From positions 1 to 37,044 of the forward strand of contig JAQQAI010000066.1 of NCBI GenBank assembly GCA_028532915.1: a DNA stretch of 37,044 nt, in the 5' to 3' direction. The DNA comes from Sphaerochaetaceae bacterium. Lineage in GTDB: Bacteria; Spirochaetota; Spirochaetia; Sphaerochaetales; Sphaerochaetaceae. This document shows positions 2,897 through 8,214 of this stretch, in pieces (the first letter of the stretch is position 1; every line of letters begins with the position of its first letter). The translations under genes and the position numbers were made by a program. The notes below the pieces were generated by a model. The model saw only the letters and a list, made by a program, of their open reading frames with translations, was not told the origin of the DNA and searched no databases.

Positions 2897-3634
2897 CTAT
2901 TCATTCTGGTCCTTAAGATGCATCCAGGGACATAGTTTCCTGTCCAGAAAGGAAAAGAGGACAAACAGAGACGTCGCGAGGAGACTCAGTGCCGTTATCC
3001 CGGCATACATATCCAGATAGTCCAGTCTCGCCCAGCTGTCCATGATGTACCATCCCAGTCCTGTCGTTGTGGCAAAGGTCTCTGCAAGGAAAAGAATCGC
3101 AGTCGCAGTACCTGTTGAGACTCTCAGGGCAGTAAACAGGGAAGGCAGGACCGCCGGGATGATTACATGGATCAGCATCTCAGACCGACTCGCGCCGAGA
3201 CTGCGCACAGAATCAATGTAGTGCTGGTCTATCGCATAGGCTGCATCTCTGATGACGAAATAGAGCTGAAAGAATACGACGATGGCGATGAAAAAGAATT
3301 TAGAAAGGTTTCCCAGACCTAAAAACAGCATGATCACCGGAAGAAGCGCGACTTTGGGAATAGGATAGAGTATATAGGCAAAGGGGGTGAGAAACCGGTC
3401 AGCCTTCGGAATTCTTCCGGCTGTGAGTGCAAAGAAAGCCGCCGTCACGGTCGCACCTGCCAGAGCGATGATGATCCTGTATGCCGATATCGCCAGATGA
3501 GTTGCCAGAATACCGTTGAGAAAAGCCTTCAGGGTATGAAGGAGGACAAGGTGTGGATAAGGGAGAAACGGTTTTGAGGTGATGAAAGCGAACAGATACC
3601 ACAGGCTGAGCAGGACGAAAGCGGATTTCTTCAT
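2897..3634 (-). CDS. ABC transporter permease, NitT/TauT (SsuC/TauC) type
   Basis: Inner-membrane subunit of the importer encoded by the two preceding genes. It is about 245 residues with roughly six hydrophobic segments. The cytoplasmic EAA loop is recognisable (SVRSLGASRSEML....IIPAVLPSLF), which docks on the ATPase. I chose the ATG at 3634 because it follows GGAAGGAGGGGG at normal spacing and overlaps the ATPase stop as ATGA. A longer frame to 3676 would bury the start inside the ATPase gene. It is the last gene of the six-gene ubiD-ubiA-ubiX-ABC operon. The substrate cannot be read from the permease. Confidence 0.88.
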   Translation of the reverse strand: MKKSAFVLLSLWYLFAFITSKPFLPYPHLVLLHTLKAFLNGILATHLAISAYRIIIALAGATVTAAFFALTAGRIPKADRFLTPFAYILYPIPKVALLPVIMLFLGLGNLSKFFFIAIVVFFQLYFVIRDAAYAIDQHYIDSVRSLGASRSEMLIHVIIPAVLPSLFTALRVSTGTATAILFLAETFATTTGLGWYIMDSWARLDYLDMYAGITALSLLATSLFVLFSFLDRKLCPWMHLKDQNE

Positions 3635-4392
3635 CGGTGTCCCCCTCCTTCCAGAATATCCCGCAGTCGAACACATTGTTCGAAATAACGCCGGTTCCCT
3701 CTGAGGTGATCGTCGGTCTCATGAGTGTTCGGGATGGGAGAAAGGAAGTGTGCCGGCAGGCCGTCCTGCCGCCGCATCACGTGGATAGTATCACCGAGAT
3801 AGACGGCTTCCTCTATACTGTGAGTCACCATGATACATGTCATTGCATGCTTCATTTTTATGGCAAGCAACAGTTCCTGCATACTCTCTCTGTTCATCGC
3901 ATCGAGTGCTGAAAACGGTTCGTCCATCAGCAGCAGTGCAGGTTCTGTCACGATGGCCCTCGCGATCGCACAGCGCTGTTTCTCCCCTCCCGAAAGCTGG
4001 GAGGGAAAGGAGGATAAGAGATGAGATATCCCGATCTCCTCTACCACAGCATTCACCTTTTCAGCAGTCTGCTTTTCAGACATCTTGCGCAGACGCAGAG
4101 AGAGAGCGATATTATCATAGACACTCTTCCAGGGAAGAAGTCCGAAATCCTGAAGAATGATGGCCCTGTTATGAGAAACAGCATCCAAGTCACTCTCGTT
4201 GAAGCAAATCGACCCGCCATCAGGTGTGATCAGATTCGCCAGAAGGTAGAGAAGCGTGGTCTTACCGCATCCGGAATGACCTATGATGGCATGAATCTTG
4301 TCTCTGGCGAAGTGGTAAGAGCACGAGGAAAAGATCTGTACTGATCTGTGCTTCTGCACATAGGAGTATGAGACCCCTTCGAGTTTCACCAT
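3631..4392 (-). CDS. ABC transporter ATP-binding protein, NitT/TauT type
   Basis: ATPase that powers the adjacent importer. All nucleotide-binding motifs are intact: Walker A GHSGCGKTT, Q-loop LQDFGLLPW, signature LSGGEKQR, Walker B LLLMDEP followed by the D-loop SALD, and H-loop VTHS. The length (253 aa) and the LPW after the Q-loop are typical of the SsuB/TauB/nitrate subgroup. The start codon overlaps the stop of the binding-protein gene (TAATG) and its stop overlaps the permease start (ATGA). The three subunits should therefore be translationally coupled. Confidence 0.93.
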   Translation of the reverse strand: MVKLEGVSYSYVQKHRSVQIFSSCSYHFARDKIHAIIGHSGCGKTTLLYLLANLITPDGGSICFNESDLDAVSHNRAIILQDFGLLPWKSVYDNIALSLRLRKMSEKQTAEKVNAVVEEIGISHLLSSFPSQLSGGEKQRCAIARAIVTEPALLLMDEPFSALDAMNRESMQELLLAIKMKHAMTCIMVTHSIEEAVYLGDTIHVMRRQDGLPAHFLSPIPNTHETDDHLRGNRRYFEQCVRLRDILEGGGHR

Positions 4393-5327
4393 TACAGACT
4401 CTGAAGTACCGAAGTGTCGATCAGATCGTCATACGAGGGAACGGTATCAAGCAGTTCATGTTCGCTCATCCATTGCGCGATATTTTCGATCTGATCTTCG
4501 GTGGGAAGATGAATTTTTGAATAAGTCACGAAGCTGAACACCCCGGCCACCTGTTCAGAGAAACCTGCATGGTCCACAAGAAATGACCGGTAGGCATCAT
4601 TGTCGGCATTGATGAGCTGCCCCGCTCTCTGATACGCTCTGAAGACTTTCGCCAGATCTTCTGTATGATCTGTCACGAACTGCGCATCGAAGAGCATGAC
4701 ACCGGGAGCATCAGATAAAGAAGTACTGTCTCCCAGAGGTTTCGCACCGTTGAGAACGGCCTGAGTGTACAGAGGTTCGGGAAGACAGGCGGCAGGAATC
4801 TGATCGTTAAGAAGCAGTTCCATCCGAACCGGAATCTTGGGAACGGCTACCAGTGATATTTTCTGAGAATCTACTCCCGCACGGCTGACAAGAGTATCAG
4901 CGAGATATTCGATGATGGTATTGCTGCTTATCCCGATATCTTTGCCGGCAAGCTCATCCAATGAGGAGACTTCTCCGTTCGGCGAGGCTGCTATCCCGTA
5001 GCGTCCGTCTGTAACCGAAACGATCGAGATATCGAATCCGGCCTGTTCGAGGAAGAACGCTCCGAGAGTGTCCGCAACGATCCCGTCAACCTGCCGGGCC
5101 TGAAAAGCCGCATCTCTTTCGACCGGACTTTGGAACATGACCAGTTCGACCTCTACCCCTTCTTCATCGAACAGCTGTTCAAAATCAGCGAGCATGAACG
5201 GAAGGGAATCGACATCGGGCAGGATGCCGATCTTAACTTTCTGCATCTCCTGCACTCCCTGTGCAGAAAGGGACACAGACACCGCTATCATCATAATACA
5301 CATCGAAATATATCTACGTATTTTCAT
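4392..5327 (-). CDS. periplasmic substrate-binding protein of NitT/TauT/NMT1-like ABC importer
   Basis: Solute-binding component that would capture the substrate in the periplasm. It has an N-terminal signal peptide (MKIRRY, hydrophobic stretch, SLSA cleavage-like site) without a lipobox Cys. A two-lobed NMT1/TauA-like pattern follows: VKIGILPDVDSLPF at the start of lobe 1 and repeated short-chain motifs such as DELAGKDIGI. I prefer the ATG at 5327: it has a GGAGA at good spacing and overlaps the ubiX-like stop as TAATG. An upstream in-frame ATG (5339) lacks a ribosome site. About 311 residues. Relatives bind small anions, sulfonates, aromatics or thiamine precursors, so the ligand is open. 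Its place behind ubiD/ubiA/ubiX suggests an aromatic quinone precursor (inference). Confidence 0.85.
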   Translation of the reverse strand: MKIRRYISMCIMMIAVSVSLSAQGVQEMQKVKIGILPDVDSLPFMLADFEQLFDEEGVEVELVMFQSPVERDAAFQARQVDGIVADTLGAFFLEQAGFDISIVSVTDGRYGIAASPNGEVSSLDELAGKDIGISSNTIIEYLADTLVSRAGVDSQKISLVAVPKIPVRMELLLNDQIPAACLPEPLYTQAVLNGAKPLGDSTSLSDAPGVMLFDAQFVTDHTEDLAKVFRAYQRAGQLINADNDAYRSFLVDHAGFSEQVAGVFSFVTYSKIHLPTEDQIENIAQWMSEHELLDTVPSYDDLIDTSVLQSL

Positions 5328-5899
5328 TATTTTCTCCATCTTTTAATATGGGTATCAGAAAGCTGCAGTGATAGCAGCACCCTGTCAATTGTCGAATCTA
5401 TGATATCATCCACCGTTTCGGGATGGCAATAGAAAGAAGGTATCGGGGGAAGAATCATCGCCCCGCAGTTGCTCAATGTGAGCATGTTCTGAAGGTGTAT
5501 CGAACTCAACGGAGTCTCTCTGGCGACCAGAATCAGCTGTCTTCTCTCCTTGAGTGTGACACTTGCAGCCCGTTCGATCAGATTTGAAGAAAGGCCGTTC
5601 GCGATGGCCCCGAGTGTTCCCATCGAACAGGGGATGACCACCATGGCATCCACATCGACAGAACCGCTTGAGATCGGTGCGGCAAGGTCCTCATGGGCGT
5701 GCACTTCGATCCGCTCATGTTCAAATCCGCCCAGCCATTCGTTCACACTTTTTCCGGTCTCCTCCATCATGACCTTTTCGGCCCATCCGGAGATGACAAG
5801 ATGGATGTGAACATCTTTCATCCGTCCCAGTCTTTCCATAAGGCGGACAGGATACAGGGAACCGGTGGCTCCCGTGACAGCTACGATAACTGATTTCAT
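5327..5899 (-). CDS. ubiX: UbiX-like flavin prenyltransferase (MqnM/Pad1 family)
   Basis: Makes prenylated FMN, the cofactor of UbiD-type decarboxylases. The 190 residues follow the family throughout: TGATG near the N-terminus for flavin phosphate binding, the AAPISSGS segment, VIPCSMGTL, NLIERAASVTLKERR, ARETPLSSIH and a final ILPPIPSFY. The start at 5899 overlaps the ubiA-like stop (ATGA). A longer frame extends upstream to about 6625, but that part is an out-of-frame reading of the prenyltransferase gene. Its partner decarboxylase lies two genes upstream in the same operon, which supports the functional link. A role in quinone synthesis is inferred from the operon. Confidence 0.92.
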   Translation of the reverse strand: MKSVIVAVTGATGSLYPVRLMERLGRMKDVHIHLVISGWAEKVMMEETGKSVNEWLGGFEHERIEVHAHEDLAAPISSGSVDVDAMVVIPCSMGTLGAIANGLSSNLIERAASVTLKERRQLILVARETPLSSIHLQNMLTLSNCGAMILPPIPSFYCHPETVDDIIDSTIDRVLLSLQLSDTHIKRWRK

Positions 5900-6759
5900 C
5901 CGACATACACCTCCATCACAACGAACAGAAAGAATACGACACTTACTATCTCGTTGATATGATATGCGGCCGTCGTCACGTGTTTCAACCTTCCCGGAGC
6001 AACGAGAGCATTCTCGATAAAAAGGAGAACGGCGACGAATACCGTTCCCGTATAATACCAGTAACCGGCATCGTAGAAACAGCCCCATACTATCAGCAGA
6101 GCAAATGAGACTCCATGTGAAACGGCAGCTATGATCAGTGAGGTTCTGACCCCGAAACGGGCAGGTACGGAATGAAGATGCTGCTGCCGGTCGAAGGCGA
6201 CATCCTGAGTGGCGTAGATGATGTCGAAACCCGCCACCCATAGAGCCACAGCGCCAGAAATGATGAAATAGGAAAGCTTGAAAGCTCCATTGAGTGCAAG
6301 CAAAGTTCCCATGGGAGCTATCGCGACGGTAAGACCGAGAAAATAATGGCACAACCAGGTAAACCGTTTCGTATACGAATAAAGGCCGATCATTACCAGT
6401 GCGGCTGGAAGCAGAGCGGCACACAGCCGGTTGAGCTTGAAGGCTGAAAAAACAAGCAGTGCGATACACAACAGCGTAAAGATCCACAAATCGGCTCTTT
6501 TTAGTTCTCCGGAAGGCAGATGCCGGCCTTTCGTGCGGGGGTTGAGGGCATCGAGCGGGTGGTCGATGAGCCGGTTGAGAGCGTTTGCTCCGTTTCTTGC
6601 TCCCAGGATTGCCAGAAGGATCCACAGAATCTTCTTCTGAGGAAGATGCCCGGATGTCTCGAGAAGAAAAGCTGATCCGGCGAACGGAAGAGAGAAAAGT
6701 GTATGCTGGATCATGACCGACCGTGCGATCTTCTTCGGTCTGAGCAGTAGATCTGTCAC
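5896..6759 (-). CDS. UbiA-family aromatic prenyltransferase (MqnP-like)
   Basis: Integral-membrane enzyme transferring a polyprenyl chain to an aromatic ring. The two Asp-rich Mg-prenyl-diphosphate motifs are present: N-x-L-N-R-L-I-D-x-x-x-D (NALNRLIDHPLDALNPRT) and D-x-x-Y-A-x-Q-D-x-x-x-D (DIIYATQDVAFD). Around these lie eight to nine hydrophobic helices in 287 residues. The start is a GTG at 6759 preceded by GAGGGT, 3 nt after the ubiD-like stop. With adjacent UbiX- and UbiD-type genes it resembles the late part of the futalosine menaquinone route (MqnP/MqnL/MqnM) or ubiquinone UbiA/D/X. The exact acceptor cannot be decided from sequence alone. Confidence 0.9.
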   Translation of the reverse strand: MTDLLLRPKKIARSVMIQHTLFSLPFAGSAFLLETSGHLPQKKILWILLAILGARNGANALNRLIDHPLDALNPRTKGRHLPSGELKRADLWIFTLLCIALLVFSAFKLNRLCAALLPAALVMIGLYSYTKRFTWLCHYFLGLTVAIAPMGTLLALNGAFKLSYFIISGAVALWVAGFDIIYATQDVAFDRQQHLHSVPARFGVRTSLIIAAVSHGVSFALLIVWGCFYDAGYWYYTGTVFVAVLLFIENALVAPGRLKHVTTAAYHINEIVSVVFFLFVVMEVYVG

Positions 6760-6762
6760 TAT

Positions 6763-8214
6763 CTAACCCTCGATGTTCAAATCGGCCCAGATCTCATCGA
6801 TGCGTCTTTTCACACTCTCATCCATCACGATATCATCGGGCCACTCACGTGTGTGGTTATCCATGAGAGTCTTCTTCGTCGCATCGATCCCTATCCTCGT
6901 CCCCTTCAGAGGAAGAGGTGATGCGTGATCGAGCGCATCCAGAGGTCCGTCAGCGAAAAGGATATCACGTCTTGCATCGATGTTATTGAACACCTTCCAC
7001 ATCACAGTCGACAGATCATGGACATCGACGTTCTCATCCACGACGATGATCATCTTCGTATACATCATCTGCCCCAGTCCCCACAGAGAGTACATCACTT
7101 TCTGAACCTGCCCGGGATATCTTTTTCTGATCGAGACGACAGCACAGTTGTGAAAGACACCAGAAAGAGGCAGCTCCATGTCTATTACTTCGGGAACGAC
7201 CAGCTGCAGAAGAGGCAGAAACAGCCTTTCGGTAGCCTTGGCCATGAAGCAGTCTTCCATCGGGGGTTTGCCCACGATCGTTGCAGGGTAGACCGGTTTT
7301 TTCTTCCTGGTGATGCATTTCACATGAAATACGGGGTACTTTCCTTCAAGTGAATAATATCCGGTATGATCTCCGAAAGGACCTTCTGTGTGCAGAGGTT
7401 CTTCCGGGTCCACATACCCTTCCAGAACGAACTCCGCATCGGAAGGGACCTGGAGAGGAACGGTGACACAGTCCACCATCTCGACAGGCTTCCCTCTCAA
7501 AAATCCCGCGAAAAGAATCTCATAGATTCCTTCCGGAAGCGGTGCAGTAGATGCGTAGGTTATCGCCGGGTCCCCGCCGAGAGCCACAGCCACCGGCATC
7601 AGCTCTTTCTTCTCCTTGTATTTCTGGAAAAAATGGGAACCGTCCTTATGGATATGCCAGTGCATCCCTGTGGTATTTTTATCGAACACCTGCATCCGAT
7701 ACATGCCGAGATTCGATACACCGGTATCAGGATCTTTCGTGAACACAAGAGGCAAGGTGAAAAAGGGTCCTCCATCCTGAGGCCAGCAGGTGAGAATTGG
7801 AAGTTTGGTCAGATCGGGGTCATGATCGATCACTTCCTGACATGCACCTTTTCTCACTTTTTTGGGGAAGAAAGAGCGGAAGACGGAGAGTTTGGGAATG
7901 ATCGACGGGATATCTATGCTTTTTGCCTGACTGAATCCCCACCTTATCAGTTCGGCAATCTCATTCTGCTTCTCTTCAAGGCTGTCACAGCTGAGAGCCA
8001 TGGCTATCCGCCTGTAAGAACCCATCGCGTTGATGAGGACAGGAAAATCTGAACCTTTCACGTTCTCGAACAGCAGAGCCTTTCCGCCTGCCTTGCTCAC
8101 CCTGTCGGTGATCTCCGTTATCTCAAGATAAGGATCCACCTCATGTGTGATCCTGCACAATTCCCCGTGTGCTTCAAGTGTGTCGATGAAGCTTTGTAAA
8201 TCCTTATATGCCAT
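6763..8214 (-). CDS. ubiD: UbiD-family prenyl-FMN decarboxylase (MqnL-like)
   Basis: Non-oxidative decarboxylase of prenylated aromatic carboxylates that uses the cofactor made by the UbiX-like enzyme. At 483 residues it is full length. Family landmarks include the N-terminal MAYKDLQSFID..LE..GEL segment, LFENVKG, GMYRMQVFDKNTTGMHWH, FAGFLRGKPVEMV, EGPFGDHTGYYS (acidic active-site region) and the late NDVDVHD-like strand (VDENVDVHDLSTVMW). First gene of the six-gene operon. The ATG at 8214 has no strong Shine-Dalgarno sequence. A 16-bp imperfect palindrome lies 35-50 nt upstream. Substrate specificity (1,4-dihydroxy-6-naphthoate type versus another acid) is inferred from context only. Confidence 0.92.
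   Translation of the reverse strand: MAYKDLQSFIDTLEAHGELCRITHEVDPYLEITEITDRVSKAGGKALLFENVKGSDFPVLINAMGSYRRIAMALSCDSLEEKQNEIAELIRWGFSQAKSIDIPSIIPKLSVFRSFFPKKVRKGACQEVIDHDPDLTKLPILTCWPQDGGPFFTLPLVFTKDPDTGVSNLGMYRMQVFDKNTTGMHWHIHKDGSHFFQKYKEKKELMPVAVALGGDPAITYASTAPLPEGIYEILFAGFLRGKPVEMVDCVTVPLQVPSDAEFVLEGYVDPEEPLHTEGPFGDHTGYYSLEGKYPVFHVKCITRKKKPVYPATIVGKPPMEDCFMAKATERLFLPLLQLVVPEVIDMELPLSGVFHNCAVVSIRKRYPGQVQKVMYSLWGLGQMMYTKMIIVVDENVDVHDLSTVMWKVFNNIDARRDILFADGPLDALDHASPLPLKGTRIGIDATKKTLMDNHTREWPDDIVMDESVKRRIDEIWADLNIEG

Follow-up and report, generated by a model that had tools for sequence, protein, structure and literature searches.

A conserved operon of UbiD-, UbiA- and UbiX-type enzymes with an ABC importer, a likely quinone-precursor salvage module in a Sphaerochaetaceae bacterium

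Gene content of the operon

The window analyzed here is an entire contig (C66) of 37,044 bases from a Sphaerochaetaceae genome bin of 2.64 Mb, which is 97% complete. Six intact genes on the minus strand occupy positions 2897-8214 and encode a UbiD, a UbiA and a UbiX protein together with a complete NitT/TauT-type importer. Read from position 8214 downward, they specify an MqnL-like, UbiD-type prFMN decarboxylase of 483 amino acids (6763-8214; TIGR03701 and motif residues), an MqnP-like, UbiA-type prenyltransferase of 287 amino acids (5896-6759; TIGR01475, MqnP_DT and Asp motifs), an MqnM-like, UbiX-type flavin prenyltransferase (5327-5899; TIGR00421 and NF004685), a substrate-binding protein of the NMT1/SsuA superfamily with an N-terminal signal helix and 311 amino acids (4392-5327; PF13379 and PF09084), the importer ATPase (3631-4392; PF00005 and motifs) and a TauC/SsuC-like permease (2897-3634; PF00528). 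The coordinates of UbiX, the binding protein and the permease follow from the best start codons. The junctions are a 3-nt gap between ubiD and ubiA, ATGA overlaps between ubiA and ubiX and between the ATPase and permease genes, and TAATG both between ubiX and the binding-protein gene and between the latter and the ATPase gene. The ATPase retains Walker A, LSGGEK, Walker B and the H-loop; with a binding protein bearing an export signal, an ATPase and a permease, all intact, the requirements for a NitT/TauT-type ABC importer are met. A GGDEF-EAL membrane protein is encoded at 968-2890, convergent with the end of the operon, and no link between the two was seen.

The UbiD protein scored 657.1 bits against the MqnL equivalog model TIGR03701 (mena_SCO4490; cut-off 495.9), and it is the only protein in its genome to match that model. 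Residues R173, E272 and E277 are present; the role of this R/E/E set is known from Fdc1-type enzymes. The same protein falls far below the cut-offs of the models for E. coli UbiD (422 of 788) and VdcC (247 of 650). The UbiA protein passed TIGR01475, a UbiA-like subfamily (276.7 bits, cut-off 180.8), and carries both Asp motifs (NRLIDHPLD and DVAFD); its best model is MqnP_DT at 291 bits, under the cut-off of 430, so that no MqnP cut-off was reached. The UbiX protein passed TIGR00421 (205.9 bits, cut-off 108.9) and NF004685 (209.9 bits, cut-off 188), and its top-scoring model is VdcB, yet below the VdcB cut-off. The initial annotation, made from sequence alone, had described a tightly spaced, single-strand operon of six genes and typed the three enzymes as UbiD, UbiA and UbiX. 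Both claims held, and the typing can be refined to an MqnL equivalog match for UbiD and a nearest resemblance to MqnP for UbiA. A second UbiA-family protein of this genome, which is MenA-like (170 bits, under cut-off), is encoded on contig C80 (L031, 10830-11786), apart from any quinone gene seen.

Conserved linkage and missing early genes

Among 81 related genomes, the 10 MqnL-positive spirochaetes all have the enzymes adjoining importer genes. When a species-genome collection was scanned with the binding-protein alignment alone, 80 loci were recovered; adding nine spirochaete regions and the window and removing duplicates gave 87 non-redundant loci. A ubiD, ubiA or ubiX gene lies within 43 of these 87 loci, namely 16/16 in spirochaetes, 27/39 in Bacillota not assigned to Negativicutes and 0/30 in Negativicutes, and the linkage was seen in spirochaetes, Clostridia and Halanaerobiales. 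By our own estimate, which places one ubiD per genome at random, fewer than one of the 87 loci would be expected to have ubiD within 10 kb. The linkage of importer and enzymes is not due to chance. Furthermore, gene order differs among the linked loci, with the binding-protein gene first, last or divergent, which favors a functional link over mere co-inheritance. In the binding-protein tree, the window protein falls inside a well-supported Sphaerochaetaceae group of which every member is linked, and the Negativicutes proteins cluster separately. Genomes with the binding protein also tend to carry the decarboxylase: MqnL was above cut-off in 53 of the 57 that were searched. No MqnA, MqnC or MqnD was found in 42 of these 57, and strong matches to MqnA-type PF02621 proteins and to MqnC are confined to the same 15 genomes.

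At least one gene of the FLEET electron-export type adjoins the importer at 20 of the 43 linked loci, and none is shown at the other 23. These neighbors are type II NADH dehydrogenase, polyprenyl synthase, ApbE, NusG_II (EetA), Hpre_diP_synt_I (EetB) and FMN-bind lipoproteins (PplA). The comparison of gene order in relatives that the initial annotation had proposed thus shows the linkage to recur. A tie of the binding protein to thiamine or sulfonate genes, which would have refuted that annotation, was not encountered; the partners are ubiD, ubiA, ubiX and FLEET genes.

Two further neighborhoods were observed. A U32-family protein (TrhP/UbiU-like, under cut-offs) and a class III aminotransferase occur together beside the module at nine of the 87 loci (among them L025 at 3168-6279, L027, L052, L066, L096, L100, L102 and L104), in spirochaetes, Clostridia and one member of the Negativicutes. 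U32 enzymes include O2-independent hydroxylases, thus extra ring chemistry is possible at these loci. In Pelosinus and Aquicultoria (L063, L069, L073, L077, L081 and L098), the operon with the binding-protein gene has a P-type metal ATPase in its vicinity.

The early part of quinone synthesis was sought in the genome of the window with models for MqnA/D, MqnC, MenB and UbiE/MenG; UbiC, MenD, MenF and the other men genes were left out of this search. No MqnA or MqnD (PF02621) was found, the single match of 38 bits being a binding-protein-like gene, and MqnC was likewise not found (best score 40 bits). Neither MenB nor UbiE/MenG was detected at the thresholds used. A complete futalosine pathway, defined by MqnA, MqnC and MqnD in the same genome, is therefore lacking. 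A relative with a closed, single-contig and 100% complete genome (G048) has the same operon at 62-84% identity per protein, and MqnA/D, MqnC, MenB and UbiE/MenG were not found there either; missing contigs thus do not explain the absences. None of the 81 relatives has a strong MqnA/D match (best PF02621 score 53 bits). Judged on the early genes searched, this fermentative spirochaete is apparently unable to build a respiratory quinone from scratch. The initial annotation had reported no early mqn or men gene and no UbiE/MenG in the window, and this absence extends genome-wide for MqnA/D, MqnC, MenB and UbiE/MenG. A full early pathway elsewhere in the genome, which it had named as refuting, did not appear, as MqnA/D, MqnC and MenB were not found.

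Ligand, proposed pathway and alternatives

The structure of the binding protein was modeled with a pLDDT of 94.6. Its nearest folds in structural libraries are SsuA, 3un6, CmpA, TauA and PqqT, with transport proteins at Z 25-29 (PqqT at Z 25.8 and 17-18% identity); THI5-type folds also rank high, and MqnD (2czl) has the same fold but falls behind the transport proteins at Z 19.6. No PF02621 (MqnA/MqnD) match was found in the window protein at E 0.001. A common fold with SsuA, CmpA, TauA and PqqT is insufficient to name a ligand. Two of the 57 genomes lack any TIGR03701 match (L099 and L109), and in both a MenA-type gene adjoins the binding-protein gene (226 bits against the TIGR00751 cut-off of 102 in L099). 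In one relative (G020), whose genome has no MqnL, a single locus holds FLEET together with a MenA-like gene and an importer that has diverged. The presence of MenA beside the importer where MqnL is missing suggests that the ligand is likely a dihydroxynaphthoate, and that the importer follows naphthoate chemistry and not UbiX.

1,4-Dihydroxy-6-naphthoate is the product of MqnD and has its quinol oxygens already in place (also PMC4746308). Prenylation and decarboxylation would thus suffice to yield demethylmenaquinol, with no hydroxylase or methyltransferase needed, a route in keeping with the genes present and with the lack of MenG. For the 2-carboxylate isomer MenA alone would do; UbiA, UbiD and UbiX together imply the 6-carboxylate. 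The MenA-like protein on contig C80, which scores below cut-off, means that the imported precursor could instead be the 2-carboxylate. The earlier inference that the importer brings in an aromatic carboxylate, for example a dihydroxynaphthoate, is supported, while the ligand itself remains inferred in the absence of binding data.

The electron-export system that such a quinone might serve could not be seen by the initial annotation, which had only contig C66 in view. On contig C6 of the same genome (L137, 6440-13499), one stretch encodes polyprenyl synthase, Ndh2, ApbE, EetB, EetA and PplA. A full FLEET locus, for which Ndh2, EetA, EetB, ApbE/FmnB, polyprenyl synthase and PplA must stand together, is thus present, although the PplA match is below its cut-off (68.5 of 325). 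Ndh2 occurs in all 10 MqnL-positive spirochaetes, compared with 31 of the 81 genomes overall (P = 2.4×10−5, hypergeometric, not corrected for kinship). FLEET does not require the operon, as Ndh2 is present and MqnL missing in 21 relatives. Even where the MqnL module is lacking, Sphaerochaetaceae commonly carry FLEET loci (L138, L139 and L141-L147), and G004, G024 and G017 are among the relatives of this kind. According to one paper, EET in Listeria and Enterococcus has demethylmenaquinone as its carrier, and cross-fed quinones sustain EET in L. plantarum (PMC10746273); elsewhere the demethylmenaquinone intermediate is called putative (PMC9094743).

The operon is likely a salvage module in which an imported dihydroxynaphthoate is finished to demethylmenaquinone for FLEET. 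The gene content, its intactness, the conserved linkage, the absence of UbiE/MenG and of the early genes searched and the full FLEET locus are shown; the ligand (binding and transport), the order of reactions, the product and the flow of electrons are inferred. Under this model, the binding protein, ATPase and permease would import a soluble, hydroxylated naphthoate made by neighboring bacteria, most likely 1,4-dihydroxy-6-naphthoate. In the cytosol, the MqnP-like UbiA would add a polyprenyl chain, the source of which would be the polyprenyl diphosphate synthase encoded at the FLEET locus, the MqnM-like UbiX would produce prenyl-FMN for UbiD, and the MqnL-like UbiD with prenyl-FMN would take off the carboxylate to give demethylmenaquinol. 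With UbiE/MenG absent, the product would remain demethylmenaquinone, which would accept electrons from Ndh2 and pass them on to EetA/EetB and, outside the membrane, to the flavinylated lipoprotein PplA. Against this model, release of 1,4-dihydroxy-6-naphthoate by producers is not established in the literature consulted.

The Negativicutes pose a separate puzzle. Of 120 sampled genomes from the class that includes Megamonas (G112), 50 have the binding protein, 64 a strong PF02621 protein and 46 both (odds ratio 33; P = 1.4×10−13, Fisher's exact test, not corrected for kinship). The strong PF02621 proteins are nearly always one per genome; the exceptions are two proteins in G140 that look like fragments and two full-length ones in G095 that were not distinguished. 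In Sporomusa the PF02621 gene stands in the order mqnE-A-C, which identifies its product as MqnA; MqnD itself is apparently lacking. The Negativicutes (e.g., L112) have mqnE-A-C with MqnD apparently missing. It is possible that the binding protein helps these bacteria to complete the futalosine pathway. As an obligate replacement of MqnD it was rejected, as 18 of the 64 MqnA-positive Negativicutes lack it. An identity with MqnZ, the alternative MqnD of PMC4746308, was dropped as well, since the substitute proposed there is a PF01048 protein, unlike the binding protein. As the Negativicutes protein is unlinked to ubiD and accompanies mqnE-A-C, either its role differs there or our account is incomplete.

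Several other explanations can be weighed against the salvage model. The binding protein might be an MqnD-like catalyst, or the importer might take up an earlier futalosine intermediate (e.g., cyclic de-hypoxanthine futalosine) from which 1,4-dihydroxy-6-naphthoate would form on the binding protein. The shared fold of MqnD and the presence of MqnA in 46 of the 50 Negativicutes carriers, where MqnD seems missing, speak for this. However, besides its absence from 18 MqnA-positive Negativicutes, the binding protein has either a signal peptide or a lipobox and is accompanied by an ATPase and permease, the window protein has no PF02621 match, and its fold is nearer to transport proteins than to MqnD. 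MqnD uses a catalytic His, and no invariant or nearly invariant His is found across 48 sequences. Overall, this alternative is very improbable. Import of a flavin or flavin precursor (as by RibXY) for UbiX and FLEET flavinylation has equally little to recommend it. UbiX uses FMN, FLEET is rich in flavin, riboflavin and pyrimidines are ligands of some NMT1-type binding proteins, and THI5-type folds rank high; but an Rfam search of the window returned only a tRNA and no riboswitch, hence no FMN riboswitch, the importer remains beside MenA in genomes without MqnL, and it tracks the prenyltransferase and decarboxylase instead of FLEET, given the 23 of 43 linked loci without a FLEET neighbor.

It could also be argued that the ligand is a benzoate, such as 4-hydroxybenzoate, leading to a prenylphenol or ubiquinone-like product or to Vdc-like detoxification of aromatic acids. 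The top model of UbiX is VdcB, albeit under cut-off, and 4-hydroxybenzoate is also a substrate of the UbiD and UbiA families. On the other hand, UbiD matches the MqnL equivalog and is far under the E. coli UbiD and VdcC cut-offs, prenylated and decarboxylated 4-hydroxybenzoate is merely a phenol with UbiE/MenG absent, a detoxification cluster has no need of a prenyltransferase, and UbiA is replaced by MenA at some loci; this reading too is highly doubtful. Less remote, though still unlikely, is that importer and enzymes are neighbors without a common substrate and that the precursor is synthesized by an unknown route or diffuses into the cell. In its favor, no transporter is known for the exogenous DHNA that L. 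plantarum uses. Opposed to this are the tight operon, a linkage that persists across two phyla and through rearrangements of gene order, and MqnL in 53 of the 57 binding-protein genomes.

Significance and relation to known systems

A bolder version of the salvage reading, toward which we lean only slightly, is that Spirochaetota and Bacillota possess a widespread, dedicated ABC importer family for soluble precursors of quinones, pairing in modular fashion with either MqnP/L/M (6-carboxylate) or MenA (2-carboxylate) and making the flavin-based EET of fermenters depend on cross-feeding. Importers for soluble quinone precursors were expected to exist but were yet to be annotated (Ravcheev and Thiele 2016, PMC4746308), and a paper of the following year stated that transporters of this kind were still undescribed (Fenn et al. 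2017, PMC5738691). No description of a quinone-precursor importer was found in the titles and abstracts of the literature searched, with most subscription papers outside the search. The operon would provide a first candidate transporter for quinone precursors, and points to a concrete, testable candidate family. Quinone cross-feeding is already documented; if the model is true, intermediates of the futalosine pathway, besides DHNA, would be shared goods. It would also predict fermenters that need a precursor for electron export, among them uncultured spirochaetes and a number of named Bacillota, could aid cultivation, and would account for some partial quinone pathways in genomes.

Compared with the late futalosine enzymes MqnP, MqnL and MqnM, whose genes were found in every Mqn-pathway genome and not in others (Ravcheev and Thiele 2016, PMC4746308), the operon has the same three enzyme types, its UbiD passing the MqnL equivalog model, but here MqnA/C/D are absent and an importer is part of the operon. 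With the MenA-based DHNA salvage of menaquinone auxotrophs and L. plantarum (PMC10746273, PMC5738691), it has in common the late enzymes alone and a precursor made by neighbors, and EET use of the quinone is documented for L. plantarum. That salvage relies on MenA-type enzymes acting on the 2-carboxylate and has no known dedicated transporter, whereas the operon described here encodes an ABC importer, and its UbiA, UbiD and UbiX imply the 6-carboxylate. Relative to the FLEET system of Listeria and relatives (Ndh2, EetA, EetB, DmkA, DmkB, FmnB and PplA), homologs of all components are present except an adjoining DmkA, and the PplA of this genome has three repeats; by inference, the operon for the imported precursor, which lies on a different contig, apparently takes the place of the DmkA step. 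PqqT, which binds the quinone cofactor PQQ, shares the fold of the binding protein and has a carboxylated quinone as its ligand, but the two proteins are distant in sequence, and PQQ is a finished soluble cofactor and not a precursor of a lipid quinone. Precursor salvage itself was already known; the new element would be its combination with a dedicated importer, in the futalosine branch and tied to FLEET.
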